Shown here: piece by piece, positions 3-34,438 of the stretch | Position numbering within the stretch: position 1 is the stretch's first letter | How the letters are laid out: the number at the start of each line of letters is the position of its first letter | Made by a program: the position numbers and the translations under genes | The notes under the pieces: generated by a model | The model's database searches: none | What the model was told of the DNA's origin: nothing | The model's input: the letters and a program-made list of their open reading frames with translations, nothing else | Source: Bacteroidota bacterium | GTDB lineage: Bacteria; Bacteroidota; Rhodothermia; Rhodothermales; Salinibacteraceae | Length of the DNA stretch: 37,647 bases | Assembly (NCBI GenBank): GCA_009908415.1 | Contig: JAAAPH010000338.1 | Span: forward strand, 1-37,647 | Direction of reading: 5' to 3'

Positions 3-791
3 TCGCTTCACTACCAGGACACCGGTCCTCTGGCCCTCGGGCTGCATCGGAGCGATTGGGACGAGCAAGCCGCGTTCATCGGCATTGAGGGCGGGACCGC
101 TGGGGGTGCCCACGCGCACATGGACGCTGGCGCGTTCGTGATGGAGGCGGACGGCGTGCGGTGGGGCCTGGACCTGAAGCGCCCGGATTACCATCCCCTG
201 GAGGAAGCCGGCATCGCCCTGTGGAACTTCGAGCAGGATAGCGAACGCTGGTCGATCTATCGGCTGAACAACTTCAGTCACAACACGCTGGTGGTCAACG
301 GCGAACGGCAGCGGGTCGACGGCTTTGCCGACGTGGTGAAACACGAAGGCGAGGGCGCGACGCCGCACACGATTTTGGATCTGAGCGCGGTGTACGCGGG
401 CCAGCTGGCTGCGGCGCAGCGGGGCATCGCGCTGGTCGACGGGCAGGCGGTGCGGGTGCAGGACGAGATCGCCGCGCCCGCGGATGCGCCTGCCGCGGTG
501 CGCTGGGCCATGATGACGCGTGCCGACGTGCAGATCACGGGCGACCGCACGGCGACGCTCGCGCAGGACGGGCAGACGCTGTCGTTCCGCATCTTGGAGC
601 CCGCGGATGCTCGCGTGGAAACCTACGCGACGGAGCCCCCGGCGGCGTATGAACCCTCCAACGAAGGGGCACGCCTGGTCGGCTTCACGACGAACCTGGA
701 CGCTGGGGCCGAGGCGCGGCTGGTGGTCGCACTGCTCCCCGGTGACTACGACGGCCCCCTATTCCCTACTGACGCGCTCGCCGACTGGTAG
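3..791 (+). CDS. Heparinase II/III-like polysaccharide lyase, C-terminal part (5' end outside window)
   Basis: The frame is open from the window start. The translation ...GIEGGTAGGAHAHMDAGAFVMEADGVRWGLDLKRPDY... matches the heparinase II/III family pattern (GG..H.HxDxGxF...G..W..D). The ORF track's Met at 120 is internal. Confidence 0.85.
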   Translation, partial: SLHYQDTGPLALGLHRSDWDEQAAFIGIEGGTAGGAHAHMDAGAFVMEADGVRWGLDLKRPDYHPLEEAGIALWNFEQDSERWSIYRLNNFSHNTLVVNGERQRVDGFADVVKHEGEGATPHTILDLSAVYAGQLAAAQRGIALVDGQAVRVQDEIAAPADAPAAVRWAMMTRADVQITGDRTATLAQDGQTLSFRILEPADARVETYATEPPAAYEPSNEGARLVGFTTNLDAGAEARLVVALLPGDYDGPLFPTDALADW

Positions 792-3004: not shown

Positions 3005-6000
3005 ATGAATCAATTGCAACGAATTGCGTGGTGCGCGATCGCCGCGTTCCTTTTTATCTTCGCCTTTTCGTCGCTGCCGGCTTGGGCGCAGTCCGGCAGC
3101 ATCACCGGCGTTGTGACCGATGCTGAGTCGCAGACGACCCTTCCCGGCGCCAGTGTGGTGATCGAAGGGACCAACCAGGGGGCGTCGACCAACAGCCGGG
3201 GCGAATACGAAATCCCGGATGTCGATCCTGGGTCCTACACGGTGGTTGTGAGCTTCGTGGGATACAGCACGCAGGCTCAAGAGGTGACCGTGGAGGCCGG
3301 AGAGGCGGCGACGCTCGACTTCGTGCTCCGCCCCTCGGCCATGCAGATGGACGAGATCGTAGCCATTGGGTACGGCCAGCAGGAGCGCCGCGACGTAACG
3401 GGGTCGGTCTCTTCGGTTAGCGGGGAAGATCTGCAGCAAGTTTCGAACACCTCGATCGATCTCGGGCTGCAGGGCCTCTCACCCGGGGTCTACGTTCAGC
3501 GCGGCCGCACCCGACCGGGCGACCAGGCAGCCCAGGTGCGCATCCGGGGGAACCGGTCGATCTCGGCCGGCAACGAGCCGCTGTACGTGGTGGACGGCGT
3601 ACCCATTACGGGGGGCCTGCAGGACATCAATCCGCAGAACGTCGAGTCGATTGAGGTGCTCAAAGACGCTTCGGCCACGGCCATCTACGGCGCACGCGGC
3701 GCGAACGGCGTGGTCCTGATCACGACGCAGCGCGGGTACGAAGGTCGCATGACCGTCAGTTACAACGGCTACGCCGGCGTCTCGTCAAAGTACCGAGAGG
3801 TGCCGGTCTTCAGTGGCACCGAGTTCGCCGAGTACAAGCGGGAGTCGCGCCGGACGACGGGCGACTACCCGGATGGCGTCAGCGCGGAGGCTGATGAGCA
3901 GCTCTTCGAACCGGTGGAGTTGGAGTCCCTCGGGCAGGGGCGGTCCACGGACTGGCAGGACCTGATGACCGAGCGCGGCACGGAGCAGAACCACCAGATC
4001 AGCGTGGCCGGCGGCACACAGGACGTGCAGTTTAACGTCTCGTTCGGGGCCTTGCTCGACGACGGCATCATTCCGCAGCAGAACTTCCAGCGGTACACCT
4101 CGCGGGTAAACCTGGACGTGACCGTAAACGACTGGCTCCAGGTCGGGACCTCGACGCTGGGGAGCTACAGCATCCAGAATCACGGCGACGAGAATCCGTA
4201 CTTCGAGGCCGTGCAGAACAATCCACTCGGTCCCGCCTTCTGCGATGAGACAGAGCTGCGCGCGTGCCAGGACGGTAACCTGATCTTCTTGCCGACCTCG
4301 GACGGGCTGCAGTACAACCCGCTCTACGACGTGCAGGACGACGCCATCATCGACGAGGAAAAGCGCTACCGCTTGCTGAGTAGCCTCTTCGCCGACGTGA
4401 GCGTGTTGGAGGGGCTGAACTATCGATTCAGCTTCAGCCCCGACCTGATCCAGCGCCGGGAAGGCAACTTCGCCGTGAGCCTCACGGGCCAGCAGCGTTT
4501 TGCCCCCCCCGACGGGTCGAAGCAGGAAGACTTCGTGCTGAATTACACGGTGGACAACCAGGTCAACTACAGCAATACCTTCTCCGACGTGCACGAGCTG
4601 AACGTGACGGGGCTGTTTAGCTACCAGCAGCGCGAAGAGGAGGCTTCCAGCCTTTCGGTGCGCGGCATCCCGGTGGAAGACATGCAGGACGACAACTTCG
4701 GCGCCGCTGAAGTCATCGAAGGCGTCGATAGCAATTTCGAACAATGGTCGCTCGTCTCCTACATGGGGCGCGTCAACTACGTCTACGACGACCGCTACCT
4801 GGCCACTTTCACGGGGCGGCTGGACGGCTCCTCGCGGTTCGGCGAGAACAACCGGTTCGGGGTCTTCCCCTCCTTTGCGCTCGCCTGGAATATCGACAAC
4901 GAAGCGTTCATGGCCGACAACGAGTTCTTCGACGCGTTGCGCGTGCGGTTCAGCTGGGGCCAAAGTGGAAACACGGCTATCGATCCGTACCAGACGCTCG
5001 GGCTGCTGGGCCGGACCACGTACGCGTTCGGCGGCAACGCTGGATTCGGGTATCGACCGGCGCAGCTCAGCAATCCGGACCTGAAGTGGGAGACCACGTC
5101 GACGTACAACCTGGGCGTCGAGTTTGAAGTGTTCAACGCGCGGCTCTCGGGCGCCGTCGATGCGTATCTGGCGAACACGACCGACCTGCTGCTGCAACGG
5201 CAGATTCCGTTCACGAGCGGGTTCGGGAGCGTGCTAGAAAACATTGGCGCCACGCGCAACAAAGGCATTGAGCTCTCGCTCACGTCGGTGAACATCGACA
5301 GCGAGGATCCCAATGGATTCCGCTGGACGACGAACTTCAATATGGCCTATAACGACGAGGAGATCGTCGAACTCTTTGGGGGTAAAGAGGACGACATCGG
5401 GAACGAGTGGTTCATCGGCGAAGCCATCGAGGTGTTCTACGATTACGAGCGCCTCGGCATCTGGCAGCAGGATGAGGCCTCGGAGGCCGCCGGGTACGAT
5501 CAGAACCCGGGCGAAATCAAAGTCCGTGATCAGGATGGAGACGGTGACATTGGCGGCTCAGACCGCGTCATTCTCGGGCAGGAACAGCCCAAGGTGACCG
5601 CCGGCCTCAACACGCAGTTCAGCTACCGCGGATGGGACCTGTCCGTCTACCTCGTCGGACGCTTCGGCAGCATGATCGACAGTGCGCCGCACACCAGTGG
5701 CGGCATCAACGGGCTGTTTGGGCGCTACAACAACCTGGCCGTGAACTACTGGACGCCGGACAATCCCACTAATCGGTACCCGCGTCCGAATCAGAACCAG
5801 GAGTTCCCGATCTACGGGTCGACGCTGGGCTACTTCAGCGGCAACTTCGTGAAGATCCGGAGCGCCACGCTGTCCTACAGCCTGCCGAGCTCCATCCTGG
5901 AGCAGGTGAACGCGCAAGCGCTGCGCTTCTACGTGACGGCCGAGCAGCCGTTCATCTTCGCTCCGTACGTGCAGAACCACCTGGGCATCGATCCTGAGTA

Positions 6001-6061
6001 TCCTGAAGTCAATACGCCGTCGACGCGGTCGTTCCGGCTGGGGGTGAACCTGACCCTATGA
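3005..6061 (+). CDS. SusC/RagA family TonB-linked outer membrane protein
   Basis: Signal peptide, carboxypeptidase-regulatory-like domain (GSITGVVTDAESQTTLPGASVVIEGTNQGASTNSRGEYEI), TonB plug (VAIGYGQQERRDVTGSVSSV; NVESIEVLKDASATAIYGARGANGVVLITTQRG); 1018 aa. Confidence 0.97.
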   Translation: MNQLQRIAWCAIAAFLFIFAFSSLPAWAQSGSITGVVTDAESQTTLPGASVVIEGTNQGASTNSRGEYEIPDVDPGSYTVVVSFVGYSTQAQEVTVEAGEAATLDFVLRPSAMQMDEIVAIGYGQQERRDVTGSVSSVSGEDLQQVSNTSIDLGLQGLSPGVYVQRGRTRPGDQAAQVRIRGNRSISAGNEPLYVVDGVPITGGLQDINPQNVESIEVLKDASATAIYGARGANGVVLITTQRGYEGRMTVSYNGYAGVSSKYREVPVFSGTEFAEYKRESRRTTGDYPDGVSAEADEQLFEPVELESLGQGRSTDWQDLMTERGTEQNHQISVAGGTQDVQFNVSFGALLDDGIIPQQNFQRYTSRVNLDVTVNDWLQVGTSTLGSYSIQNHGDENPYFEAVQNNPLGPAFCDETELRACQDGNLIFLPTSDGLQYNPLYDVQDDAIIDEEKRYRLLSSLFADVSVLEGLNYRFSFSPDLIQRREGNFAVSLTGQQRFAPPDGSKQEDFVLNYTVDNQVNYSNTFSDVHELNVTGLFSYQQREEEASSLSVRGIPVEDMQDDNFGAAEVIEGVDSNFEQWSLVSYMGRVNYVYDDRYLATFTGRLDGSSRFGENNRFGVFPSFALAWNIDNEAFMADNEFFDALRVRFSWGQSGNTAIDPYQTLGLLGRTTYAFGGNAGFGYRPAQLSNPDLKWETTSTYNLGVEFEVFNARLSGAVDAYLANTTDLLLQRQIPFTSGFGSVLENIGATRNKGIELSLTSVNIDSEDPNGFRWTTNFNMAYNDEEIVELFGGKEDDIGNEWFIGEAIEVFYDYERLGIWQQDEASEAAGYDQNPGEIKVRDQDGDGDIGGSDRVILGQEQPKVTAGLNTQFSYRGWDLSVYLVGRFGSMIDSAPHTSGGINGLFGRYNNLAVNYWTPDNPTNRYPRPNQNQEFPIYGSTLGYFSGNFVKIRSATLSYSLPSSILEQVNAQALRFYVTAEQPFIFAPYVQNHLGIDPEYPEVNTPSTRSFRLGVNLTL

Positions 6062-7785
6062 GTTATCCACCAATGCACCAACGTTCGACCCCCATGCAAT
6101 CAACGATACTCAGCCTGATGAAGCACTGGACTCGCTTTACCCTATTCGCTGTTCTTCTCGGACTGACGGTGGGCCTGACCGCCTGTGACTCGCTCGTCGA
6201 GCAGGAGGTGAAGTCGCAGGTGCCCTCCGGTTACTACGAAACCACGGCCGGCTTTGAGGCGGCAGTAAACGCCTCCTACGAGACGCTCCGCTCGTTCTAC
6301 GCGAAGGAGATCGGCGGGACGATGACTGTCTTCGGCACCGACACCTACCAACAGGGCTCGGATGGGTCGTGGAAGTTCTTCGACTCGTACGGGGGCCAGC
6401 TCGACCCCTCGGCGGGGTACATCAGCGGCCTCTGGAATAGCATGTACGAGGGCATCAATACGACCAACGCCGTCGTGGGGCGTGCCGGAAACGTGGAGGG
6501 CCTCTCGCAAGACGAGGTCACCGTGCGCGTCGCTGAAGCGCGGTTCCTGCGCGCACACTTCTACTTCATCCTCGTGCAGCAGTATGGTCCGGTCCACATC
6601 ACGCTCGAAGAAACCGAAGGTGTGGAAATCGAAGCCACGCGCTCGCCCATCGCGGATGTCTACAACGTGATCGTTGAAGACCTGGAGTTTGCAATCAGCA
6701 ACCTGCCGGTGGAGCCGCGCGAGTACGGGCGGGCCACGAAGCCGGCCGCCGAGCACATGCTGGCAAAAGTGCTGCTCACGCGGGGCTGGTCCGATGCCGC
6801 GCAGAGCAACGACTTCAGCCGGGCCGCTACGCTCGCGGAAGGCGTGATCAATAATTACAACTTCGAACTGCTGGATGACTTCGGCGATGTGTTTGCCTTC
6901 GGCAATGATCGGAATGCCGAGGTCGTGTGGTCGGTGCAGTACGATGCGAACCAGCTCATCAACGGCGGCGGGAATAACTTCCACCTGTACTTCCTGATGG
7001 AGTACGACGTGCTTCCGGGGATGAACCGGAACGTCCGCGACGGCCGGCCCTGGAAACGATTCCGGCCCACGGAGTTCACGCTGGAGACGCTCTTCGACCG
7101 CGACTTGCGGGATGAGGACGTCCGGTACGAGCGGAGCTTCAAAGACGCCTTCCTCACGTCGAACCCCGGCACGTACACCTGCAACGGCGTCGACTGCACC
7201 CTGGCCGAGGGCGACACGGCCCTCTACCTCCCGGGTGTCGACATGACCGAGCAGGAGAAGCAGGAGCGTCCCTTCCAGGTGTATACGCCGGACATGTACA
7301 CGGACAAGATCTACCCGACGCTCACGAAGCACCTGGACCCGGACCGGCCCAGCATTAACGACACGCGCGGCTCGCGCGACTTCTTGCTGATGCGCCTGGC
7401 CGAGACGTACCTCATCGCGGCCGAGGCCCGGCTGAGGAACGGTGAGCCCGGTATCGCCCGGCAGCACGTGAACACCGTGCGGGACCGGGCTGCACGTCCG
7501 GATGAGAACGGCGATAAGAGCGCGAATCAGGCGGCCTTGCGCGCCCTCGTTCCGGACCCGATCACCATCGACTTCATCCTCGACGAGCGCGGTCGCGAAC
7601 TGCTCGGCGAGATGCACCGGTGGTTCGACCTGGTGCGCACCGGTACGCTCGTGGAGCGAGTGCAGGCGCACAATCCGTTCGGCGGTCCGAACATCCAGGA
7701 GCATCATGCGCTGCGGCCGATTCCGCAGGACCAGATTGACCGGACCAGCACGGAGTTCCCGCAGAATCCGGACTATGGCACCTAA
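6058..7785 (+). CDS. RagB/SusD family nutrient-uptake lipoprotein
   Basis: Directly follows SusC. Lipobox LTVGLTAC|DS; RagB/SusD C-terminal pattern (DFLLMRLAETYLIAAEARLRNG; FILDERGRELLGEMHRWFDLVRTGTL). ORF start overlaps the SusC stop by 4 nt; alternative starts at 6094 and 6118. Confidence 0.96.
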   Translation: MSYPPMHQRSTPMQSTILSLMKHWTRFTLFAVLLGLTVGLTACDSLVEQEVKSQVPSGYYETTAGFEAAVNASYETLRSFYAKEIGGTMTVFGTDTYQQGSDGSWKFFDSYGGQLDPSAGYISGLWNSMYEGINTTNAVVGRAGNVEGLSQDEVTVRVAEARFLRAHFYFILVQQYGPVHITLEETEGVEIEATRSPIADVYNVIVEDLEFAISNLPVEPREYGRATKPAAEHMLAKVLLTRGWSDAAQSNDFSRAATLAEGVINNYNFELLDDFGDVFAFGNDRNAEVVWSVQYDANQLINGGGNNFHLYFLMEYDVLPGMNRNVRDGRPWKRFRPTEFTLETLFDRDLRDEDVRYERSFKDAFLTSNPGTYTCNGVDCTLAEGDTALYLPGVDMTEQEKQERPFQVYTPDMYTDKIYPTLTKHLDPDRPSINDTRGSRDFLLMRLAETYLIAAEARLRNGEPGIARQHVNTVRDRAARPDENGDKSANQAALRALVPDPITIDFILDERGRELLGEMHRWFDLVRTGTLVERVQAHNPFGGPNIQEHHALRPIPQDQIDRTSTEFPQNPDYGT

Positions 7786-7903: not shown

Positions 7904-8109
7904 AGACATCCTGGCTGTCTGGCAGCCGGGGCGGGAGCAGAAAGCGAGGATCTGCATTTATTGTGATCCGAACGTTTTGTACACTATAAGCTGATCGACA
8001 GGGAGCTTTGGGCCGTTAGCGTGCGTGCCTCGTAGGGCGGCTCGGTAAGCGCTGGCGCTCCCGATGGGCAATGTCTCCACCCTTTCTCCTCACCTTGAAA
8101 AGCAATACG

Positions 8110-8955
8110 ATGATGAAGGTACTTCTTCAGTATTCTAGCTCTGGCACAACAGCGGGTCGCCTCTTTACGACGCTGGCCGCGGTTTGTACCTTGGCGCTCG
8201 TCGTCGGCACGGTCGGCTGCACGTCCGAGAGCGATGAGGAGTCCGAGCCGACGCCGGCCCTCAACACGCTGACGGACGCGGAGCGCGCCGATGGATGGAC
8301 CCTGCTGTTCGACGGGGAGAGCTTCGACGGCTGGACCGGGCTCGGACGCGATGCCATCCCTCAAGAGCACTGGGTCATCGAGGACGGCACCATCCGGAAA
8401 ATGGAAAGCGATGACGTCCCGACGGCCGAGGACGGGCAACCGCTCGAAGGCGGCGACATCATGACGGAGGCGACCTACCGCGACTTCGAGCTGCAATTCG
8501 AGTGGAAGACCAGTGAGGTAGGCAACAGCGGCATCAAGTACAACGTGTCGGAGTCGCTTTCGACGGCGCATGAGCCGGCCTATGCGGCGCTCGGTTTCGA
8601 GTATCAGTTGCTGGATGACGACCGTCATCCGGACTCCGAGCTACCCAGCCACCGGGCGGCGGCCCTCTACGACCTGCTTCCGGCCAACGACCAGAAAGCA
8701 CTGCGGCCGGTGGGCGAGTGGAACCAGGCGCGCCTCGTGTTCAACGGCAACCGCGGCGAGCACTGGCTCAACGGGGCCAAGGTGGTGGAGTACGACCTGA
8801 GCTCCGCTCGCTTCGACTCGGCATTCGTGGCCAGCAAGTATGCGGACATCGAGGGCTTCCGGACGCGGCGTGCGGGACACATCGTGCTGCAGGATCACAG
8901 CGATGACTTCTGGTTCCGCAATATCAAGATTCGAGAGCTGCCGCCTCCGCAGTAG
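8110..8955 (+). CDS. DUF1080 domain lipoprotein (3-keto-disaccharide hydrolase/lyase-like)
   Basis: Lipobox LVVGTVGC|TS; DUF1080 motifs GWTLLFDGESFDGWTGLG, GGDIMTEATYRDFELQFEWKTSEVGNSGIKY, WNQARLVFNGNRGEHWLNGAKVVEYD, GHIVLQDHSDDFWFRNIKIREL. ORF opens at 8071; ATG at 8110 or 8113 preferred. Confidence 0.9.
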   Translation: MMKVLLQYSSSGTTAGRLFTTLAAVCTLALVVGTVGCTSESDEESEPTPALNTLTDAERADGWTLLFDGESFDGWTGLGRDAIPQEHWVIEDGTIRKMESDDVPTAEDGQPLEGGDIMTEATYRDFELQFEWKTSEVGNSGIKYNVSESLSTAHEPAYAALGFEYQLLDDDRHPDSELPSHRAAALYDLLPANDQKALRPVGEWNQARLVFNGNRGEHWLNGAKVVEYDLSSARFDSAFVASKYADIEGFRTRRAGHIVLQDHSDDFWFRNIKIRELPPPQ

Positions 8956-9031
8956 GTCCGTTTGTCCCCCGGCTCGCTGCCGACCGATCATCCACTGACT
9001 GACGACTTTCACCATCAAGCCTCTTGATCCC

Positions 9032-10411
9032 ATGAACGAAGACATGCAGCGTCGTACATTCATTAAGCGAGCGGCCGCCGCCGGCATTGGGCTGGGCATG
9101 GTCGGCCATCTTTCTCCCATCTACGGGCGTGGAGGACCCAATGACCGGGTCGTCGTCGCCGTGATGGGCGTCAACAGCCGTGGCCATGCGTTGGCCGAGG
9201 CCTTCGCGCGGGCCGAGGGCACCGAGGTGGGCTATATCTGCGACGTCGACGAACGGGCCATCGAGCGGTGCATCGCCGGCGTGAGCACGGCTCAAGACGG
9301 CAGCCCGCCGTTGCAAGAGCGCCGGCCTACGGGCGAGGTGGACGTGCGGCGCGCCTTGGACGATGACGAGGTGGATGCGCTGGTCATCGCTGCGCCGGAT
9401 CACTGGCACGCGCCCGCGACGCTCATGGCCATGGATGCGGGCAAGCACGTATATGTCGAGAAGCCGGCCAGTCACAACGCGCGCGAGGGCGAGATGCTCC
9501 TGGAGGCGCAGCAGAAACACTCGAATCTCGTGGTGCAGATGGGGAACCAGCAGCGGTCGTCGCCGCGGTCCATTCAGGCCGTTCAGGAAATCCGCGATGG
9601 CATCATCGGCCGGCCGTACTACGGGCGCGCTTGGTACGCCAACGCCCGCGGGCCCACCACCTTTGAGCCCGGCGCATCCGTGCCCGACTGGCTCGACTAC
9701 GAGCTGTGGCAGGGGCCGGCGCCGCGCCGTGCGTACCAGGAAAACCTCGTCCACTACAACTGGCACTGGCTCTGGCACTGGGGCACTGGCGAGATTTGCA
9801 ACAATGGGACGCACGAGATCGACGTCTGCCGCTGGGCGCTGGACGTCGACCATCCCATACGCGTCACCTCCAGCGGTGGGCGCTACCACTACGACGACGG
9901 GTGGGAGGCCTTCGACACGCAAGTTGCCAGCTTCGATTTCGAGGACAACAAGACCATCGTCTGGGAAGGACGCAGCTGCAATGCCAACCCCGTTAAGGGC
10001 GGACAAGGCCTGCCGGGCGGCGGACGCGGCGCCTCCATCCACGGCACCGAGGGCACCGTCATCATAGACCGCGGCGGGTACGTCGTCTATGACAACGACA
10101 ACAACCTCATCAAGTACGAGAACGAATCGCAGGCCGGCCAGCAGGTCAGTGGGACCGGCATCGTAGGGGCCGGGAATCTCACCGACCGGCACGTGGCCAA
10201 CTTTGTGGCGTCGATCCGTGGGGATGAGGAGCCACGGGCCCCTATCACGGACGGGCGCAAGAGCGTGCTGCTGTGCCACCTGGGCAACATCGCCCAACGC
10301 ACCGGTCATACGCTCGACGTCGACGCATCGACGGGGCGAATCCAAAACGATGACGCGGCCATGCAGCTCTGGGGGCGCGAGTATGAGTCCGGTTGGGAGC
10401 CGCAGGTGTAA
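9032..10411 (+). CDS. Exported (Tat) Gfo/Idh/MocA family oxidoreductase
   Basis: N-terminus MNEDMQRRTFIKRAAAAGIGLGMVG has a twin-arginine motif. Rossmann/Gfo-Idh motifs VVVAVMGVNSRG, ALVIAAPDHWHAPATLMAMDAGKHVYVEKPASHNAREGEML; WGTGEICNNGTHEIDVCRWAL. Confidence 0.93.
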   Translation: MNEDMQRRTFIKRAAAAGIGLGMVGHLSPIYGRGGPNDRVVVAVMGVNSRGHALAEAFARAEGTEVGYICDVDERAIERCIAGVSTAQDGSPPLQERRPTGEVDVRRALDDDEVDALVIAAPDHWHAPATLMAMDAGKHVYVEKPASHNAREGEMLLEAQQKHSNLVVQMGNQQRSSPRSIQAVQEIRDGIIGRPYYGRAWYANARGPTTFEPGASVPDWLDYELWQGPAPRRAYQENLVHYNWHWLWHWGTGEICNNGTHEIDVCRWALDVDHPIRVTSSGGRYHYDDGWEAFDTQVASFDFEDNKTIVWEGRSCNANPVKGGQGLPGGGRGASIHGTEGTVIIDRGGYVVYDNDNNLIKYENESQAGQQVSGTGIVGAGNLTDRHVANFVASIRGDEEPRAPITDGRKSVLLCHLGNIAQRTGHTLDVDASTGRIQNDDAAMQLWGREYESGWEPQV

Positions 10412-10447
10412 GCGGCGGCCTACCGTACATTGACCGTAGCCTGGACC

Positions 10448-10503
10448 AGGCTCTCATGGGGTCGGGTGCCCACGCGGGGGGCCTGCCCGGCGCCATGAGG
10501 CCT
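10448..10503 (+). other. Intergenic inverted repeat (stem-loop)
   Basis: AGGCtCTCATGG (10448-10459) pairs with CCATGAGGCCT (10493-10503), one bulged T, GC-rich interior. Lies between two CDS. Confidence 0.5.
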
Positions 10504-10553
10504 GCTGTCCGGCTGGTCGTAGCACATGCTGAGTAGACGTTGTCCCCTGCGCC

Positions 10554-12218
10554 ATGAACGAGGAACTGAGTCCACTTTCACGCCGCGAGTTCGTCACTCT
10601 GGGTGGCGCCGCGGCCGCCTCGCTGGTCGCCCCCCCGGTGGCTTCCTCGGCCCCGGAACCGCCGCCGCCGACCCGGGTCGACGGGTACGAGCAGGAGCAA
10701 TACAAGCGGCGCGCGCTCCGGGCTATGACGATGATTCACGACGGCGAGTACGACGCGGCCATCGATCATTTGCACCGCCAGCTCGAAGCGATCCCGGGCG
10801 ATCCGGAGTTCTTCTATGCATTGGCCGTTGCGCATGGCCAGAACGGCAACCCCGACACGGCCGTGGACTACGTGCGGCAAGCGTTGAACGCCGGTCTGCC
10901 GCCGAGTCGGTTTTTGGCGGGACCGCGCGAGCTGCTGGCGCCCCTGGCAACTACCCACGCCTTTCGCACGCTCGTCTACCGCCGGCACGAGGCCGACTAC
11001 GTGCACGGCCCGCTTCTCGGCGCGGTTACCGACACGCAGGCGCAGGTCTGGGTGCGCACGCCGAGCGAGGCCTCGCTTCAGGTCGTGATGCAGCCGGACG
11101 GCGGGAATCAGATGCACCGCTCCGCGAGGGTGCAGACGCGAGCGGATCGCGACTTCACGGCCGTGGCCCGGGTGGAAGGGCTCCAGCCCGACACGGCGTA
11201 CACGTACCGGCTGCACATCGACGGGCGCGAACAGCCGGACCAATGGACGTTTCGCACCTTTCCGGCGGCCGGCGAGGCGGCGTCGTTTGAAATCGGATTT
11301 GGCGCGTGCGCCGGATACACGCCGTGGCGGGAACGCATCTGGCAGCGCATTGCCTCGCACAACTTCCCCGCCTTCATGCTCCTGGGCGACAACGTGTACA
11401 TCGACCGGCCGGAGCGGCCTGCGCTGCAGCGATACTGCTATTACCGCCGCCAGTCGCGGCCCGAATTCCGCGCGTTGACGGCGACCACGTCGATCGCCGC
11501 CATCTGGGACGACCACGACTTCGGCGACAATGATAGCGAAGGCGGCCCGGACCGCTTTACCCCCGCTTGGAAGGTGGATGCGTGGAAGGTGTTTCGCAAC
11601 AACTGGAGCAACGTGGCCTACGGCGGCGGCGAGGAGCAGCCCGGCGTGTGGCACCGCTGGTCGATCGCCGATGTCGATGTGTTCATGCTCGACGGGCGCT
11701 ACTACCGCACAGATGTCAACATCGACGCGCCCAGCATGCTCGGCCCCGTGCAGAAGCAGTGGCTCTTCGATGCGCTGCGCGCGTCCACGGCCACGTTCAA
11801 GCTCATCGCCTCCCCCGTGCCGTTCCCCGACGGCGCGAAGCCCGGCGAGTGGGGCTGGCGCTCCGACACGTGGGAAGGCTATCCCGACGAGCGGGAAGAG
11901 ATCTTCGCACTCATCGCCGACCATCAGATTGATGGCGTCGTTTTGCTCACGGGCGACCGCCACCGCGCGGACGTATGGAAAATTGAGCGCACCGACAGCT
12001 ACGACCTGTACGAGTTTCAAAACGCGCGCCTCACCAACATCCACACCCACGACAGCGTCCCGGGTTCGCTGTTCAGTTACAACGACACGTGCCACTTCGG
12101 GCGGCTCCGCATCGATACAACGAAAGCCGACCCCACGATCACGTACGATATCATCAGCATCGACGGAGAAGTTGTGCACTCCGTCACGCTGCGGCGCAGT
12201 CAGCTTACGTCCGCATAG
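10554..12218 (+). CDS. TPR-containing PhoD-like alkaline phosphatase/phosphodiesterase, Tat-exported
   Basis: MNEELSPLSRREFVTLGGAAAASLVAPPVAS signal; TPR-like DGEYDAAIDHLHRQLEAIPGDPEFFYALAVAHGQNGNPDTAVDYVRQAL; PhoD metal motifs LLGDNVYID, WDDHDFGDND, LLTGDRHRADVW. Confidence 0.85.
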   Translation: MNEELSPLSRREFVTLGGAAAASLVAPPVASSAPEPPPPTRVDGYEQEQYKRRALRAMTMIHDGEYDAAIDHLHRQLEAIPGDPEFFYALAVAHGQNGNPDTAVDYVRQALNAGLPPSRFLAGPRELLAPLATTHAFRTLVYRRHEADYVHGPLLGAVTDTQAQVWVRTPSEASLQVVMQPDGGNQMHRSARVQTRADRDFTAVARVEGLQPDTAYTYRLHIDGREQPDQWTFRTFPAAGEAASFEIGFGACAGYTPWRERIWQRIASHNFPAFMLLGDNVYIDRPERPALQRYCYYRRQSRPEFRALTATTSIAAIWDDHDFGDNDSEGGPDRFTPAWKVDAWKVFRNNWSNVAYGGGEEQPGVWHRWSIADVDVFMLDGRYYRTDVNIDAPSMLGPVQKQWLFDALRASTATFKLIASPVPFPDGAKPGEWGWRSDTWEGYPDEREEIFALIADHQIDGVVLLTGDRHRADVWKIERTDSYDLYEFQNARLTNIHTHDSVPGSLFSYNDTCHFGRLRIDTTKADPTITYDIISIDGEVVHSVTLRRSQLTSA

Positions 12219-12257
12219 CCACGCGATTCCGTCAGCATTCTCAGCCCCCCTCCATTC

Positions 12258-12974
12258 ATGCATCGACCATCAATGAACCTTCGATCAGTCATGACGCATC
12301 CACGCGCATTTGTTGCTCTGCTTCTCCTCGCAGCGCTCGGCCTACCGGCCTGCAGTAGTCCGGACTCGTCCTCCCAAGACGCCGCGTCGGGGGAGTGGAC
12401 CTCCCTCTTTAACGGCGAGAACCTAAACGGATGGACGAACCCGTATGAATGGGGCGAGTCCTGGGTCGAAGACGGCGTGATCCACCTCCGTGCTGACGAT
12501 AAGTTCTTCCTCGTCACCGAGGACACGTACAGCGACTTTGTTTTCGAGGGGGAGATCCGGCTGCCCGATCGCGAGTCGAACTCCGGGTTCATGTTCCGCG
12601 CCAATGTCGACACAAACCGCGTGTATGGCTATCAGGCCGAGGTCGATCCGACGGATCGTGCATGGGCCGGTGGAATCTACGACGAAGGCCGTCGCGGCTG
12701 GCTCTATCCGCCCGATGGCGACTCGGCGGCGGGGCAGGCCTTCCGCGAGGGACCGGGGCAAGCCTTCAACCCGGATCAGTGGAACACGTATCGCATCCGC
12801 GCCGAAGGCGACAGCCTCAAGATATGGGTCAACGGCACCATGACCACGGCGTACCGCGACACGATGGACAGCGAGGGCGTGATTGGCATTCAGCATCACG
12901 GCGAGGACGGCAAGATTTATCGCTTCCGCGACCTGCGCATCCGTACGCTCAACGGCGCGGAAAGCGCGGACTGA
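12258..12974 (+). CDS. DUF1080 domain lipoprotein (second copy)
   Basis: Lipobox LAALGLPAC|SS; WTSLFNGENLNGWTNPYEWGESW, FVFEGEIRLPDRESNSGFMFRAN, WNTYRIRAEGDSLKIWVNGTMTTAYRD. Alternative starts at 12273 and 12291. Confidence 0.88.
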   Translation: MHRPSMNLRSVMTHPRAFVALLLLAALGLPACSSPDSSSQDAASGEWTSLFNGENLNGWTNPYEWGESWVEDGVIHLRADDKFFLVTEDTYSDFVFEGEIRLPDRESNSGFMFRANVDTNRVYGYQAEVDPTDRAWAGGIYDEGRRGWLYPPDGDSAAGQAFREGPGQAFNPDQWNTYRIRAEGDSLKIWVNGTMTTAYRDTMDSEGVIGIQHHGEDGKIYRFRDLRIRTLNGAESAD

Positions 12975-13013
12975 GCGGAGCTATGTGTTCTTCCCCAGTG
13001 TGGAGGGTATGCG

Positions 13014-14054
13014 ATGAATCGACGTGAGCTGCTGAAGCGCGGGGTAGCCCTGGCCGGCGCGGGTTGGTGGGGGCAATCCGCGTGGCTTCCAACGGTGTCG
13101 CGGTCGGGGGGGACCCCCTCATCCGCCGAGGGGCAGATTATGACCGTGACGGGGCCGGTGGATCCGGCTACGCTCGGGACGATCCTGCCGCACGAGCACG
13201 TCCTGTCGCGCTTCGGCGAGCCACCCGCCCGCCGTCCCGATTACGACCTCGCCCCGCTTTTCGACACGGTCGTCCCTATCCTGGAGCAGGTCAAGGCGCT
13301 CGGGTGCACGGCCGTCATGGATTGCACGGCGGCGTACTTCGGGCGCGACGCGCTCATCATGCGGCGGCTGGCCGAAATGAGCGGCCTCCACCTCGTGACC
13401 AACACGGGCTACTACGGCGCAGCCGACGACCGGTACGTACCGGCGCATGCCTACCAAGAGACGCCCGAGCAGCTGGCCGGCCGGTGGCTGGACGAATGGA
13501 CCGACGGCGTTGACGGCACCGGGATCCGGCCGGGGTTTGTCAAAACGGCTGTCGACGGCTCAGGCTTTTCGGACATCGACCGCAAGCTCGTGCGCGCCGC
13601 GGCGCTGACGCACCGGGAGAGCGGGCTCCCGCTGGCCGTGCATACGTCCGGCAACGTGCCGGCCGCGCAAGAGCAATTGGCCATTCTGCGCGAAGAAGGC
13701 GTGGCGCCCGAGGCCTGGATCTGGGTGCACGCGCACAACGTGGACGACCTCGACGCGCTGTCAGACGCTGCTGAGCAAGGGGCGTGGATCGAGTTCGACG
13801 CCATCCGGCCGGATACGATCGACCGGCACGTGGCCCTGACCCGCGCGATGAAGGAGCGCGGGCACCTCGGGCGCGTCTTGCTCTCGCATGATGGCAGCTC
13901 GTATCCGCCCGACGGTACCGCTCCGCGGCCGTACGACCTGCTCTTCACGCAGTTCATCCCGGCGCTGCGCGAGGCCGGCTTCAGTGCGGAGGAAGTGCGC
14001 ACGCTGACCGTCGACAACCCGCGTCAGGCGTTCACGGTGCGCGTGCGCACCTGA
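13014..14054 (+). CDS. Phosphotriesterase-family (PLL/lactonase-like) amidohydrolase-fold protein with Tat signal
   Basis: MNRRELLKRGVALAGAGWW twin-arginine N-terminus; VDPATLGTILPHEHVLSRFG, RPGFVKTAVDG, PLAVHTSGN, VLLSHDGS are PTE-family metal-site motifs. Confidence 0.85.
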   Translation: MNRRELLKRGVALAGAGWWGQSAWLPTVSRSGGTPSSAEGQIMTVTGPVDPATLGTILPHEHVLSRFGEPPARRPDYDLAPLFDTVVPILEQVKALGCTAVMDCTAAYFGRDALIMRRLAEMSGLHLVTNTGYYGAADDRYVPAHAYQETPEQLAGRWLDEWTDGVDGTGIRPGFVKTAVDGSGFSDIDRKLVRAAALTHRESGLPLAVHTSGNVPAAQEQLAILREEGVAPEAWIWVHAHNVDDLDALSDAAEQGAWIEFDAIRPDTIDRHVALTRAMKERGHLGRVLLSHDGSSYPPDGTAPRPYDLLFTQFIPALREAGFSAEEVRTLTVDNPRQAFTVRVRT

Positions 14055-14065: not shown

Positions 14066-15541
14066 GTGAAGCGCGCTCTTTTCTCTCCAACCACTGCTTA
14101 CGCTCTGATGACCGAAGACGTCGACGTCCGCCCGCTCGAACTGCACGACGATCGCTTTTTTGACCCTGCGCCTCCGGTGCGTCGCATCGCCCGCGCGATC
14201 TACGACGAGATCAAGGATCTGCCCATCGTGGGGCCGCATGGGCACGTCGAGCCCCGCCTTCTGGCCGAGGATGAGCCGTTTCCGGAGCCCACGGCGCTCA
14301 TCATTCAGCCCGACCACTACGTGTTCCGCCTGCTCTACTCGCAGGGCGTGTCGATGGAAGACCTCGGCATCCCGACGCAGGACGGAGCGCCCGTGGAAAC
14401 CGATCCGCGGGCCATCTGGCAGCGCTTCGGCGAGCACTACCACCTCTTCAATGGCACCCCGACGGGCGCGTGGCTCGATTACGAATTCTATCACGTGTTC
14501 GGCCTTCGGGAGAAGCTAACCGGCGACTCGGCGCAGCGCATCTACGATCAGATTCTCGACCAGCTTGAGCAGCCCGACTTCCGGCCGCGCGCGCTGTTCG
14601 AGCGCTTCGGCATCGAGGTGCTCACGACCACCGACCCGGCGCATTCCACCCTTGACCACCACCGCACGTTGCGGGAGGACGGCTGGGGCGATCGCGTGCG
14701 CCCCTGCTTCCGCCCCGACGCCGTCTTCGCCATCGCGTCGCCAGACTGGAACGAGCAGCTCGCCAAGCTCGAAGCCGCCGCGGACCGGTCCATCTCGGAC
14801 TACCCGACGTTCATCGATGTGCTGGAGGAGCGGCGCGCGTTCTTCAAGGAAATGGGCGCGACGAGCACCGACCACGCCGTCATCGAGCCCCACACGCACC
14901 GGCTTTCCGACGCGGAGGCGGGGCGGCTCTTCCAGGCGGCCCGGCAGGGCGACGCGGCCCGCGATGACGAGCGGGCCTTCCAGGCGCACATGCTCATGGA
15001 AATGGCCCGCATGTCCGTCGAGGACGGGCTCGTAATGCAGATCCATCCCGGCTCGCTGCGAAACCATAACCGCGCCATCTTCGAGCGCTTCGGGCCGGAC
15101 ATGGGCGGCGACATCCCGGTGCGTGCTGAGTTCACGCGCAACCTGCACGAGCTGCTCAACGCGTACGGCAACCACCCGGCCTTCCGGCTCGTGCTCTTTA
15201 CGCTCGATGAAACAACGTACAGCCGGGAGCTCGCGCCGCTGGCGGGGCATTACCCGGCGCTGCGCCTCGGGCCGCCATGGTGGTTCCACGACTCGATCGA
15301 AGGCATGATGCGCTTCCGCAAGCAAACGACCGAAACCGCCTCCATCTACAACACGGCAGGCTTCAACGACGACACGCGGGCCTTCTGCTCGATCCCGGCC
15401 CGCCACGACCTGTGCCGCCGCGTCGATGCCAACTACCTGGCTCAGCTTGTGGCGCGGCATCAGATCGACCTGGACGAGGCGCACCGTATGGCGCACGCGC
15501 TGACGTACGGGCTCGTCAAGGACACGTACCGGCTCCCGTAG
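14066..15541 (+). CDS. uxaC: Uronate (glucuronate) isomerase
   Basis: KDLPIVGPHGHVEPRLLAEDEPF, YYHVFGL-like YEFYHVFGLREKL, LTTTDPAHSTLDHHR, FRPDAVF, MQIHPGSLRNHN, WWFHDSIEGMMRFRKQTTE. ATG at 14108 is a plausible alternative start. Confidence 0.93.
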   Translation: MKRALFSPTTAYALMTEDVDVRPLELHDDRFFDPAPPVRRIARAIYDEIKDLPIVGPHGHVEPRLLAEDEPFPEPTALIIQPDHYVFRLLYSQGVSMEDLGIPTQDGAPVETDPRAIWQRFGEHYHLFNGTPTGAWLDYEFYHVFGLREKLTGDSAQRIYDQILDQLEQPDFRPRALFERFGIEVLTTTDPAHSTLDHHRTLREDGWGDRVRPCFRPDAVFAIASPDWNEQLAKLEAAADRSISDYPTFIDVLEERRAFFKEMGATSTDHAVIEPHTHRLSDAEAGRLFQAARQGDAARDDERAFQAHMLMEMARMSVEDGLVMQIHPGSLRNHNRAIFERFGPDMGGDIPVRAEFTRNLHELLNAYGNHPAFRLVLFTLDETTYSRELAPLAGHYPALRLGPPWWFHDSIEGMMRFRKQTTETASIYNTAGFNDDTRAFCSIPARHDLCRRVDANYLAQLVARHQIDLDEAHRMAHALTYGLVKDTYRLP

Positions 15542-15728: not shown

Positions 15729-16277
15729 ATGCATACAGGGCAGAATAGGCACGTGGCATTTTACTCCAGTCATACCGTGGTCATCGTCCTGATGGGGGTT
15801 TCGGGGGCCGGCAAGACGACAATCGGGACGCAATTGGCTGACGACCTCGACTGGGAGTTCTTCGATGGCGACGAGTTTCATCCGGCCGCCAACATCGATA
15901 AGATGGCGGCGGGCATCCCGCTTGACGATGAGGACCGGTGGCCGTGGCTTCGGGCCCTGCACGATTTTATTCACGAGCGGCTTATCGTGGGTGCGCCGGC
16001 CGTGGTCGCCTGTTCGGCCCTGAAAGCCAGCTACCGGGACGTCTTGTTGGATGGCAACCAGGGCGCACGGCTCGTCTACCTGAAAGGCCCGCGCGAGCTC
16101 ATCCGTCGTCGCCTGGAGGCGCGGGCCGATCACTTCTTCGACGCGGAGCTGCTGGCGACCCAGTTCGACACGCTGGAGGAGCCGTGCCCCGACGAGGCGC
16201 TCACCGTTTCGATCGACCAGCCGCCCGAGGCCATCGTGCGCACCATCAAAGAGGCGCTCGTCGACAACGTGGCCTAA
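15729..16277 (+). CDS. gntK: Gluconokinase
   Basis: VIVLMGVSGAGKTTIGTQLADDLDWEFFDGDEFHPAANIDKMAAGIPLDDEDRWPWL, ACSALKASYRDVL, VYLKGPRELIRRRLEARADHFF. Confidence 0.95.
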   Translation: MHTGQNRHVAFYSSHTVVIVLMGVSGAGKTTIGTQLADDLDWEFFDGDEFHPAANIDKMAAGIPLDDEDRWPWLRALHDFIHERLIVGAPAVVACSALKASYRDVLLDGNQGARLVYLKGPRELIRRRLEARADHFFDAELLATQFDTLEEPCPDEALTVSIDQPPEAIVRTIKEALVDNVA

Positions 16278-16292: not shown

Positions 16293-17645
16293 TCAGACGA
16301 AGAAGCTGAGGCCGAGGACCACCGCCAGGCCAATGAGGCCGACGAGCGTTTCCATCACTGTCCAGGCCCGCAGCGTCTGCTGCTCGTCCATCCCCAGGTA
16401 GCGGCTCACCAGCCAGAAGCCGGAATCGTTGACGTGGGAGAGCACCGTCGCCCCGGAGGCGATGGCGATGGCGATCAGCCCGACGAGGGGCGGAGCATAC
16501 GATCCGGCATCGAGGACGGGCGCGATGAGTCCCGCTGCCGTTACCATCGACACGGTGGCCGAGCCCTGCGAGACGCGCACCACCAGCGCGATCATGAAGG
16601 CGAGCAGGACGACGGGCATGTTGGAGGCGGCCATCGCTTGAGCCAGCGCATCCCCCACGCCCGTTTCGACGAGCACTTCGCCCAGCACGCCGCCGGCGCC
16701 GGTCACCAGGATGATGAGCCCCACCGGTTCGAGCGCCTTCGTTGCGATCTGCTGCACCTGCTGCATGGAGTACCCGCCGCGGATGCCGAGCACATAAAAG
16801 GCGAGGAGCACCGCCAGGGTCAGGGCCGTGAACGGATGGCCGATGAACCGCAATCCGCTCCGCAGCGGCGCGTCAGGGGCGAGGGCCACGTCGGACACCG
16901 TGCCCATCAAGATGAGCACGAGCGGCAGCGCGATAATCCCCACGGCTTGACTGAACGACGGGTGCGAGGTTACGCCATCATGTTCGGTCACCTCGGCCTC
17001 CTCCTGCATGGATTCCGGCACCTCGAGGTGGATGCGGTCGGCGATGTAGCGGCCGAAGATGACGCCGCCCACGATGATGGCCGGCACGCCCGCGATGAAG
17101 CCGAAGAGGATGACCCAGCCGAGGTCGGCGTCGAGCAAGCCGGCAACGGCCACCGGGCCTGGCGTGGGCGGGATGAAGCTATGCGCCACGGCCATCCCGG
17201 CCAGCAGCGGGATGGCATAGAAGAGCAGCGAGCGGCCGGTGCGCTCGGTCAGCGTGTAGACGAGCGGGATAAACAGAATCAGGGCGACGTCGAGGAACAC
17301 CGGGATGGAGACGAGCAGGCCGGTGAGGCTGAGTGCCCATGGCGAGCGCTCGTCGCTGAAGGTTTGGAGCAACGTGTTGGCGATGGTTTCCGCGCCGCCC
17401 GACACCCGCAGCAACTCACCAATCATGGCACCCAGCCCGATCACCACGGCGATGTACCCAAGCGTGCTCCCCATGCCCTCCTCAATGATGCCCGCGATGT
17501 CGGCGAGCGGGATGCCGCCCAGGATGGCCGCCAGCAGGCTGGTGAGAAGCAGCGCCACGAACGCGTGCACGCGGCCGACGAGTACCAGCAAGAGCAGCAC
17601 GGCCACCGCCAACACGACGAGGCCGACGAGAAGCAGGGGGGACAT
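16293..17645 (-). CDS. GntP-family gluconate:H+ symporter/permease
   Basis: 450 aa, many TM segments; LGGIPLADIAGIIEEGMGSTLGYIAVVIGLGAMIGELLRVSGGAETIA, HSFIPPTPGPVAVA, ILVTGAGGVLGEVLVETGVGD, SHVNDSGFWLVSRYLGM. Confidence 0.94.
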   Translation of the reverse strand: MSPLLLVGLVVLAVAVLLLLVLVGRVHAFVALLLTSLLAAILGGIPLADIAGIIEEGMGSTLGYIAVVIGLGAMIGELLRVSGGAETIANTLLQTFSDERSPWALSLTGLLVSIPVFLDVALILFIPLVYTLTERTGRSLLFYAIPLLAGMAVAHSFIPPTPGPVAVAGLLDADLGWVILFGFIAGVPAIIVGGVIFGRYIADRIHLEVPESMQEEAEVTEHDGVTSHPSFSQAVGIIALPLVLILMGTVSDVALAPDAPLRSGLRFIGHPFTALTLAVLLAFYVLGIRGGYSMQQVQQIATKALEPVGLIILVTGAGGVLGEVLVETGVGDALAQAMAASNMPVVLLAFMIALVVRVSQGSATVSMVTAAGLIAPVLDAGSYAPPLVGLIAIAIASGATVLSHVNDSGFWLVSRYLGMDEQQTLRAWTVMETLVGLIGLAVVLGLSFFV

Positions 17646-18475: not shown

Positions 18476-18848
18476 TGGTGGGAAGAAAGCCTGGACGTCA
18501 TCAGTTTTCGGAGAGGGCGCGCCGGGTCTTTAGCACCCTTCTTCTTGGCAGAAGTGTGAGAATGTTGATGGGGAACGCCTCCCCTGGACGCTTGAGGAGT
18601 GAGGAGAATACCCTTTTTAACATCATTGCGCAGCGTAAAGGCGGTATGGCTGGAGGGCAATCGTCGGAAAGGAAAACAGCGCTGGAGGGCCGCACGGTCT
18701 TTGGGTTCACATTCAAGGCGCTGTGTCGTACTCTGTACGCTAATCCGTCGGGTACGCCGTATGGACCGGCGCGTCCGTGGCGCGTCTTCCGAGCGACGCG
18801 GATTCCTGCATACTGTACGGCCCCACCCATTGCCCCCAGGTTGAGCCG

Positions 18849-20183
18849 ATGAACGAAACGTCCGACGAGCCGGTGGCTTCCGTCGCTGCCTCCAAGCCGC
18901 CCGTGGTGCCGCGCCGCATGCTGTGGCCTTTCATCTTGCTGACGAGTTGCTTTGCGCTGTGGGGGTTGGCCAACAACATGACCGATACGCTTCTGGCAGC
19001 GTTCAAGCGCATCCTGAGCATGTCGGACTTTCAGACCTCGTGGGTGCAGGTCGCCTTCTATGGTGCGTACGGGGGCCTCGCGCTTCCGGCGGCGCTGTTC
19101 ATCCGGAGGTACACGTACAAGGCAGGCGTACTGCTCGGACTGGGCCTGTTTGTCGTTGGGGCGCTGCTGTTCTACCCGGCGAGCATCACGATGAACTACT
19201 TGCATTTTCTGGGGGCCCTCTACATCCTCGCCGGCGGCCTCTCGATCCTGGAGACGAGCGCGAACCCGTTTATCATTTCACTCGGCCCGGCGGCGACGGG
19301 GACGCAGCGGCTCAACCTGGCGCAGTCGTTCAACCCGCTCGGTTCCATCACGGGCGTCTTTCTCAGCCAGGTGTTCATTCTGTCCAACCTCAACCGGTCC
19401 ACCGCCCAGGAGCGGGCGCAGATGTCCGCGGAGCAGCTGCAGGCGATCCAGTCGGCCGAGCTGACGGCCGTCATGGGGCCGTATGTGGGCGTGGCCGTCG
19501 TGCTCGTCGTGGTCTGGGCGATGATCGCCGCCACCGATATGCCGGACGATTCGGATCGGACCCGCCAGATCAGTCTGTGGGCTACGCTGAAGCGGCTCGT
19601 CCGCCTCAAGCACTACCTGGGCGGCGTGGTCGCGCAGTTTTTCTACGTGGGCGCCCAGATCGGCGTATGGTCGTTCACCATCCGCTACGTGATGGACGAG
19701 CTGGGCCACACCGAAGCCCAGGCGGCCAGCTACTACATCGCGGCCTTGGTGCTCTTTACCGTCTCCCGGTTTCTCTGCACGTGGCTGATGAACTACGTCA
19801 AGTCCAGCACGATGCTGACGGTGCTGTCGGGCCTGGCCATTGTGCTGACGGCGGTCGTCATGCTGGGGGGCGGATACGTGGGGGTCATCGCGCTCATCGG
19901 CATCTCGGGATGCATGTCGCTGATGTTTCCGACCATCTTCGGGCTGGCCGTGCGCGGCCTGGGCGAAGATGCCAAGATCGGCGGCTCGGGGCTGATTATG
20001 GCCATCCTGGGCGGGGCGGCCCTGCCGGCCGTACAGGGGCTCATCTCGGATGCCACCGGCAGCATCAACCTGGCGTACGCGGTGCCGCTGATCTGCTTCG
20101 TCGTGGTGGCGCTCTACGGGCTTTTCTTCCTCGTCTTCGCCGAGCGGGTCGATCCGTCGGCGCCCGCCGGGCCGGCGTCGTGA
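18849..20183 (+). CDS. fucP: L-fucose:H+ symporter-like MFS permease
   Basis: MLWPFILLTSCFALWGLANNMTDTLLAAFKRILSMSDFQTSWVQVAFYGAYGGLALPAA, GGLSILETSANPFIISLGP, RLNLAQSFNPLGSITGV, FPTIFGLAVRGLGEDAKIGGSGLIMAILGGAALP. ATG at 18849 preferred over ORF start 18777. Confidence 0.93.
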   Translation: MNETSDEPVASVAASKPPVVPRRMLWPFILLTSCFALWGLANNMTDTLLAAFKRILSMSDFQTSWVQVAFYGAYGGLALPAALFIRRYTYKAGVLLGLGLFVVGALLFYPASITMNYLHFLGALYILAGGLSILETSANPFIISLGPAATGTQRLNLAQSFNPLGSITGVFLSQVFILSNLNRSTAQERAQMSAEQLQAIQSAELTAVMGPYVGVAVVLVVVWAMIAATDMPDDSDRTRQISLWATLKRLVRLKHYLGGVVAQFFYVGAQIGVWSFTIRYVMDELGHTEAQAASYYIAALVLFTVSRFLCTWLMNYVKSSTMLTVLSGLAIVLTAVVMLGGGYVGVIALIGISGCMSLMFPTIFGLAVRGLGEDAKIGGSGLIMAILGGAALPAVQGLISDATGSINLAYAVPLICFVVVALYGLFFLVFAERVDPSAPAGPAS

Positions 20184-20265
20184 CGTGAAGGTCGCCCCGG
20201 GGCGCGTACCGCGCCGGAGGGTCGCCGGGCGGCCACCGACGGCCACGTTGGGGACCCATGCGCCC

Positions 20266-21120: not shown

Positions 21121-21135
21121 ATCGAAGGGAGTGGG

Positions 21136-21912: not shown

Positions 21913-22017
21913 CGAATCTTGATTTCTAGGAGGGGAGCATGTACCATGCGCGTGCAAATGGTAACTCTAATTGCCTACAAATGCGAATAGCATGACGTGG
22001 GCACAACGCCGTCGCGG

Positions 22018-22896: not shown

Positions 22897-22922
22897 TCTG
22901 TTTGTCGGCTCCTTCTTCGTCG

Positions 22923-23687: not shown

Positions 23688-23805
23688 AGCGGGGCGGGGG
23701 GCGAATAGCCAAGGCTTCGCCACGCGTAACACACGCTTGCGCCATCCCCGATTCGGAAGAGGCCAGCAAGGTTTACGAGTTGAACCCACACCAGCCGACG
23801 CTCCC

Positions 23806-25116: not shown

Positions 25117-25179
25117 TGCCGACCGACCGGGCGCGTGTGAAGATCTCTTGATGATGAGTGCGCGCTTTGCTATCATGGC

Positions 25180-25195
25180 GTGCACACGTGTGCAC
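25180..25195. promoter_or_regulatory. Perfect 16-bp palindrome GTGCACACGTGTGCAC, candidate operator of the adjacent LacI-family gene
   Basis: Exact inverted symmetry read directly; lies in the 157-bp gap between the fuconate dehydratase stop (25116) and the LacI ATG (25274). Confidence 0.65.
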
Positions 25196-25273
25196 TCTGC
25201 TCGCCATTACCTGGATGTCCGGCGCCGTACCGCCGGAGCCGATCCGGGCCCAATAGCCGCCACGCCGCCCTTC

Positions 25274-26311: not shown

Positions 26312-26335
26312 CCAGGGCTTTACATCCGTTTTCGA

Positions 26336-28320: not shown

Positions 28321-28332
28321 CCTTCCAGGCGC

Positions 28333-29457: not shown

Positions 29458-29505
29458 CATACACACATACACACGCACACCAGAGCACCAACGGAGGTAC
29501 CGACC

Positions 29506-31410: not shown

Positions 31411-31443
31411 ATTGAAGTCCTTCCATCCAAAGCAAAACGTGTT

Positions 31444-33622: not shown

Positions 33623-34438
<816 letters not shown>

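Follow-up and report, generated by a model that had tools for sequence, protein, structure and literature searches.

The 3-keto pathway was reportedly defined by Nasseri et al. (Nature, 2024) with BT2156-BT2160 of Bacteroides thetaiotaomicron and AL1-AL3 of Alistipes. These two gene sets combine a Gfo-family 3-dehydrogenase with a DUF1080 hydratase/eliminase, and BT2158 has been reported as a periplasmic glycoside 3-dehydrogenase (PMC11300592). In the 3-ketolactose system of Caulobacter, LacABC oxidizes C3 in the periplasm and a DUF1080 protein, which has a putative signal peptide and is required for the use of lactose, acts next (PMC9007349). The GlycDH-OGE-HYD-Gfo operon of Agrobacterium proceeds through oxidation, beta-elimination, hydration and re-reduction, and appears to assign elimination to one protein and hydration to another (PMC10628242). 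In Thermogutta, xanthan, a glucuronate-containing glycan, induces two DUF1080 proteins (PMC5673643). Two solved structures are also close to the present subject, namely P2B11 glucuronide-3-dehydrogenase (Protein Data Bank entry 8TDI), which has the Gfo fold and to which an activity on C3 of glucuronides is ascribed, and the uncharacterized double DUF1080 protein BT3469 (4JQT). Here, we describe a related locus in contig JAAAPH010000338.1 of a Bacteroidota bacterium of the family Salinibacteraceae (assembly GCA_009908415.1; contig C402 in our numbering), the 37,647 nucleotides of which are referred to as the window. Two DUF1080 proteins, the lipoprotein D1 (8071..8955, alternative start 8110) and D2 (12258..12974, alternative start 12273), which has an export-type N-terminus, are encoded on either side of a Gfo/Idh/MocA oxidoreductase of the twin-arginine translocation (Tat) type, GFO (9032..10411), all on the + strand. 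The locus thus carries both ingredients of a 3-keto pathway, a 3-dehydrogenase homologue (GFO) and DUF1080 eliminase/hydratase homologues (D1 and D2). We consider it probable that these three proteins are exported and make up an oxidation-elimination module for the cleavage of glycosides that contain hexuronic acid and are imported by the adjacent SusC/SusD proteins.

Association of the locus with uronate catabolism

The three genes lie downstream of + strand genes for a SusC/RagA TonB-dependent transporter (3005..6061; TIGR04056, 820 bits) and a SusD-family outer-membrane glycan-binding lipoprotein (6058..7785; PF07980, 117 bits), and upstream of uxaC for glucuronate/galacturonate isomerase (14066..15541, + strand; NF002794, 533 bits with a cut-off of 387; PF02614, 271 bits), as the initial annotation of this DNA had placed them. 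That annotation also linked the locus to uronate catabolism through the adjacent isomerase, and the link between D2/GFO loci and uronate catabolism is real, as seen from co-location statistics and from gene orders in distant genomes. For the statistics, UxaE, UxaC and all DUF1080 positions were located in 13 genomes, the ten genomes with UxaE or UxaC were used, and D1 copies were excluded. Eight of the ten D2 loci were found within 12 kb of UxaE or UxaC, compared with 0 of 95 other DUF1080 copies (Fisher p = 1.6e-10), and 71 further genomes of the phylum gave eight D2 loci within the same distance against 0.52 expected (Poisson P = 8e-8), both p-values ignoring shared ancestry. GFO is present in the fetched stretch of seven of these eight further loci; the remaining one (L161) holds tripartite ATP-independent periplasmic (TRAP) transporter genes, D2-D1 and UxaC without GFO.

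The gene orders of uronate-linked loci vary between clades. Genome G016 has 2-keto-3-deoxygluconate (KDG) kinase, LacI, UxaE, D1, GFO, D2 and then a short-chain dehydrogenase/reductase (SDR) most like D-mannonate oxidoreductase, and UxaE, SDR, TRAP, KDG kinase or UxaC surround GFO and D2-D1 in G007, G038, G039 and G094; the stretch in G039 also holds pectinesterase, GH28, GH10 and GH67. In other loci, the order is D2D1-GFO-UxaC-SDR-UxuA in L163, UxuA-SDR-UxaC-LacI-SusD-SusC-GFO-D2D1 in L164, and TRAP-UxaE-SDR-KDG kinase-UxaC-GFO-D2D1-LacI in L158. Moreover, the uronate-linked members of a GFO tree do not form one group but at least two and probably three. The window SusC is 46-48% identical to the SusC beside GFO-D2D1-UxaC in L164 and L168 (next best 35%), and its SusD is 44-46% identical to the SusD of the same two loci (next best 29%). 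These two loci and the window share the arrangement expected of a hexuronate utilization locus, with SusC/SusD beside uronate genes.

We also compared GFO loci with and without D2. Those with D1 and no D2 carry NagA-like/NagB genes in 19 of 24 cases and uronate genes in none of this set; in D2-bearing GFO loci uronate genes occur in six of eight and NagA/NagB in none, a contrast that is a description and not an independent test because the six uronate loci had been picked via GFO/D2 searches of relatives. The contrast suggests an association of the D2 domain with uronides as the substrate class. In Flavobacteriia and relatives (L050-L101), genes for a Tat-Gfo, a second Gfo, D1, a NagA-like protein, an Nramp-family transporter and NagB stand in a conserved block, which is apparently an amino-sugar version of the 3-keto module.

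Conservation of D1, GFO and D2

GFO orthologues of 61-76% identity are present in three other genomes of the family. D1, GFO and D2 are contiguous in G016 and G020, with nothing between them, and in G007 D2 and D1 are fused in one open reading frame (ORF) that adjoins GFO. Among 80 loci from named genomes, many have D1 next to GFO or not far from it, and L095 and L105 carry D2-D1 fusions. A D2-like domain was detected in 76 of the 398 genomes of a phylum sample. The open frame that holds it has 450-500 residues in nearly all cases, and therefore the usual Bacteroidota form is a D2-D1 fusion. BT3469 matches the fused D2-D1 profile from end to end with 660 bits. The module backed by comparison thus consists of D1, GFO and D2 and is smaller than the five genes initially proposed: in the survey of gene order that had been suggested as a check, D1, GFO and D2 are found together in relatives, and the PhoD-like and phosphotriesterase (PTE)-like genes of the window are not kept with them.

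In four loci from metagenome-assembled genomes of Gemmatimonadota, Acidobacteria and Rhodothermaceae (L028-L031), three of which have D1, a gene of the AP_endonuc_2 family (sugar-isomerase fold) stands beside or near GFO instead of D2, possibly replacing the second step.

Sequence and structural features of GFO

GFO (GFO_IDH_MocA, 55 bits; C2 domain, 61 bits) is predicted to be a glycoside (uronide) 3-dehydrogenase. Its top NCBIfam family is BT_2158 glycoside 3-dehydrogenase (NF058561), matched over residues 6-288 only and below the cut-off, and the solved chains nearest to it by sequence are 8TDF/8TDH. The AlphaFold model of GFO has a mean predicted local distance difference test (pLDDT) score of 87.8, with the Rossmann fold modelled at high confidence. 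Foldseek, which the initial annotation had recommended, ranks the Alistipes glucoside-3-dehydrogenase AL3 (8TDF) first for this model, and the glucuronide-3-dehydrogenase 8TDI is near the top (template modelling score about 0.6). Residues K144, N257, N258, H261 and D264 are invariant in the relatives of GFO. Assignment of GFO to GH109 was rejected, the GH109 entries being weaker matches than AL3.

The matches nevertheless include GH109 proteins and an NAD-dependent glycoside hydrolase (8QC5/8QC6), which belong to the same superfamily, and GFO alone might be an NAD-dependent glycosidase, either GH109-like or resembling the NAD-dependent sulfoquinovosidases, with a single active site for transient oxidation at C3 and the ensuing elimination, hydration and reduction. 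The DUF1080 proteins would then have a binding or assisting role only. Such a glycosidase, too, would be compatible with export and a trapped cofactor. We regard this explanation as improbable, since the nearest sequence and fold matches are 3-dehydrogenases and not NAD-dependent hydrolases, D2 is dense in invariant polar positions, and D1 and D2 remain beside GFO, which would not be required of a dispensable binding module.

Sequence and structural features of D1 and D2

Both D1 (155 bits) and D2 (143 bits) match PF06439 (DUF1080), which Pfam now calls '3-keto-disaccharide hydrolase'. The best structural match of D1 is the second domain of 4JQT; it also matches 3HBK and the 3-keto-glycoside eliminase/hydratase structures 8RR2, 9FBE, 8TDA and 3OSD (BT2157), and is predicted to be a 3-keto-glycoside eliminase and/or a 3-keto-2-hydroxy-glycal hydratase. 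D2 belongs to the type that is usually joined to the N-terminal side of D1 in fused chains and corresponds to the first domain of 4JQT, and the fold matches of its model (pLDDT 84.7) are 4JQT/BT3469 first, CBM66 second and the AL2 hydratase 8V31 further down. The invariant positions of D2 are G-Y-Q, E-x-D-P, Y-D-E-x-R-R and Q-x-H; strong conservation of the stretch GYQxEVDPSDRAWSGGIYDExRRGW and of the late QxH argues for an active site in D2. The initial assignment of the Gfo and DUF1080 proteins to a 3-keto-glycoside pairing is upheld by the Pfam name, by the best NCBIfam family of GFO and by the nearest structures (8TDF/8TDH for GFO; 8TDA, 8RR2 and 3OSD for DUF1080).

Since CBM66 ranks second among the fold matches of D2, the DUF1080 domains could mainly be CBM66-like carbohydrate-binding modules, with GFO acting separately in the periplasm to oxidize or epimerize free uronates or other sugars. 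In Thermogutta, DUF1080 regions overlap CBM66 annotations (PMC5673643). This explanation appears slightly weaker still than a glycosidase acting alone: relatives of D1 whose structures include substrate or product (8RR2, 9FBE, 8TDA) are described as eliminase/hydratases, and Caulobacter requires a DUF1080 gene to use lactose.

Export signals

Twin-arginine motifs are present in GFO (QRRTFIKR), the PhoD-like protein (SRREFVTL) and the PTE-like protein (NRRELLKR), and the lipobox of D1 (GTVGC) fits the PROSITE-style rule. Of the two lipoboxes and three twin-arginine N-termini initially reported, only the second lipobox needs qualification: the hydrophobic stretch of D2 ends in LPAC, which fails the rule because of the Pro at -2, and the D2 orthologues carry canonical lipoboxes (LLVGC, LLTGC). 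TatC is encoded in the genome (E=6e-59), and a twin-arginine motif occurs in 84 of 94 GFO relatives, some of which represent one locus fetched twice. Export of GFO itself via Tat, as first proposed, is supported by its motif and by the precedent of periplasmic BT2158.

Proposed pathway

In the exported uronide-cleaving module proposed here, a uronide would enter the periplasm via SusC/SusD, and GFO, exported by Tat as a folded protein with NAD(P) already bound, as the initial annotation suggested from periplasmic glucose-fructose oxidoreductase, would oxidize a sugar at C3 to give a 3-keto-glycoside. One DUF1080 domain would then eliminate the aglycone to leave a 2-hydroxy-3-keto-glycal, to which water would be added by the other (or the same) DUF1080 domain. 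The hydride retained by GFO would allow it to re-reduce the 3-keto sugar; as GFO would give its hydride back in a closed redox cycle, no cofactor exchange would be needed outside the cytoplasm. Free uronate would finally enter the cell and be processed by UxaC (UxaE in relatives), an SDR mannonate dehydrogenase, UxuA and KDG kinase. We infer these reactions (C3 oxidation, elimination, hydration and re-reduction) by homology to AL3/BT2158 and BT2157/AL2, and the division of labor between D1 and D2, the bound cofactor and the substrate are likewise putative.

In addition to the shared ancestry and the choice of loci mentioned above, several observations weigh against this pathway. The 130 bits of GFO lie far below the curated cut-off of 750 for NF058561, so that it does not qualify as a BT_2158 equivalog, and identity over the GFO/8TDF fold match is only 20%. 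The canonical Gfo Asp (D-x-x-x-H), kept in AL3 and DgpA, is Asn257 in GFO and in all 90 aligned relatives; with Lys144, His261 and Asp264 invariant, the catalytic set therefore differs from the characterized one, and judging from these residues the catalysis of GFO may differ from that of characterized enzymes. The DUF1080 fold is shared with CBM66, and a binding role is therefore possible. The export signals were judged by sequence motif, by eye and by pattern rather than with a signal predictor. Furthermore, the D2D1 loci of about 65 of 73 genomes of the phylum sample are not near UxaE/UxaC; other substrates are therefore likely, and uronides may be one class among them.

Other genes of the window

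The genome is fragmented (544 contigs) and 84.8% complete. Contamination is an unlikely source of the cluster because GFO, D1, D2 and the PTE-like protein each have relatives of 70-79% identity within the family of the host. Downstream of SusC/SusD, five intact consecutive ORFs were confirmed on the + strand, and their order is D1, GFO, a Tat-type protein with tetratricopeptide repeat (TPR) and PhoD-like phosphoesterase domains (10554..12218; PF09423, 106 bits; TPR_14, 28 bits, above the cut-off), D2, and a Tat-type PTE-family metal-dependent hydrolase of lactonase/phosphotriesterase-like type (13014..14054; PF02126, 181 bits), which differs from the order in the title of the initial annotation. 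The spacers between them are 76, 142, 39 and 39 bases, followed by 11 bases to UxaC; the co-directional genes and short spacers, UxaC included, are compatible with an operon. The G+C content by codon position fits coding sequence (third-position values of 0.76-0.86), and the Pfam scores of all five proteins exceed the curated cut-offs, so that the family matches are not due to chance.

The metal-ligand motifs of the PTE-like protein (HEH, K, H, H, D) align with 4RDY. It adjoins D2 in the window and in one relative, G018, where the order is D2-PTE-UxaC; the G018 locus (L151, contig C83, 5175-7219) is a decayed copy, in which D2 has no start and an internal stop lies upstream, UxaC is truncated and the PTE gene between them is intact. 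G016 and G020 carry both PTE and the D1-GFO-D2 triad, but far apart, and the PTE neighbors in these two genomes are unrelated genes that gave no functional clue. PhoD adjoins the triad in the window only; elsewhere a single PhoD was found, at the far edge of L041. As both are rarely beside the triad in relatives, PhoD and PTE were rejected as parts of the module and are considered local additions, PTE being loosely linked. A full five-gene module, with the PTE lactonase and the PhoD phosphoesterase acting on oxidized or phosphorylated products, would suit the co-direction, export motifs and short spacers of all five genes and the D2-PTE-UxaC order in G018, and is very unlikely given these neighborhoods.

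At its start, the window cuts a + strand gene for a heparinase II/III-like polysaccharide lyase, of which the C-terminal part remains (3..791; PF07940, 52.8 bits); it is possibly the depolymerase of the D1-GFO-D2 locus, to which proximity alone would assign it. Between this gene and SusC lies a secreted-looking protein of about 550 residues (approximately 850-2517) with coding-type G+C, for which Pfam and NCBIfam gave no match. UxaC is followed by a GntK/IdnK-type gluconokinase (15729..16277, + strand; TIGR01313, 179 bits) and a GntP-family permease (16293..17645, - strand; TIGR00791, 426 bits). Positions 18777-25116 encode a FucP-type permease, an L-fuconolactonase-like amidohydrolase, SDRs and an enolase-superfamily protein, probably an oxidative L-fucose route. 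The remainder (25073-37647) consists of a LacI regulator and a myo-inositol catabolism/uptake cluster with IolB, IolC-like and IolD-like proteins, a sugar-type ABC transporter, an aldehyde dehydrogenase and Gfo proteins.

Comparison with known systems

Environmental Bacteroidota and Planctomycetota are rich in DUF1080 proteins, and substrates are known for few of these. The present comparison turns the vague label 'putative glycosyl hydrolase' into a testable assignment, in which D2-D1 with Tat-Gfo points to uronides and D1 alone goes with amino-sugar genes. It also suggests a role for the solved BT3469 structure through a specific substrate prediction (uronides). If true, it would explain the release of uronic acids from glycosides in some bacteria without a matching hydrolase or lyase.

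Compared with BT2156-BT2160 and AL1-AL3, the GFO of the window belongs to another subfamily (Asn for the canonical Asp), occurs with two DUF1080 types, and is, as a type, linked to UxaC/UxaE instead of disaccharide genes. The 8TDI chain has about 380 residues and is absent from the sequence matches of GFO at E <= 0.001. BT3469 holds D2 and D1 in one chain and its fused relatives match it end to end, whereas the window and its two nearest relatives encode D1 and D2 by separate genes that flank GFO. The Caulobacter system uses a membrane-bound LacABC dehydrogenase rather than a soluble Gfo protein, and its substrate is lactose (PMC9007349). In the Agrobacterium operon, the eliminase and hydratase are annotated as sugar phosphate isomerases and not as DUF1080 proteins, and GlycDH is a flavoenzyme (PMC10628242).

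Thus, this kind of system is already known, glucuronides (8TDI) and a periplasmic enzyme (BT2158) included, and the hydrolase-independent route is less new than the initial annotation implied, the 8TDI structure having been released in 2024. Our literature search found no paper linking 3-keto dehydrogenases to uronate isomerase. Within the literature searched, what appears to be new is the pair of D2-D1 and Asn-variant Tat-Gfo, together with its distribution and its statistical association with hexuronate catabolism and with one SusC/SusD type. We tentatively propose, as an idea that may well prove wrong, that BT3469-type D2-D1 and Asn-variant Tat-Gfo constitute a distinct, widespread and uronide-dedicated enzyme pair of Bacteroidota that would serve in the periplasm, without a hydrolase, as an alternative to glucuronidases and unsaturated glucuronyl hydrolases, and in which D1 and D2 divide elimination and hydration or the chemistry is altered by the Asp-to-Asn change.

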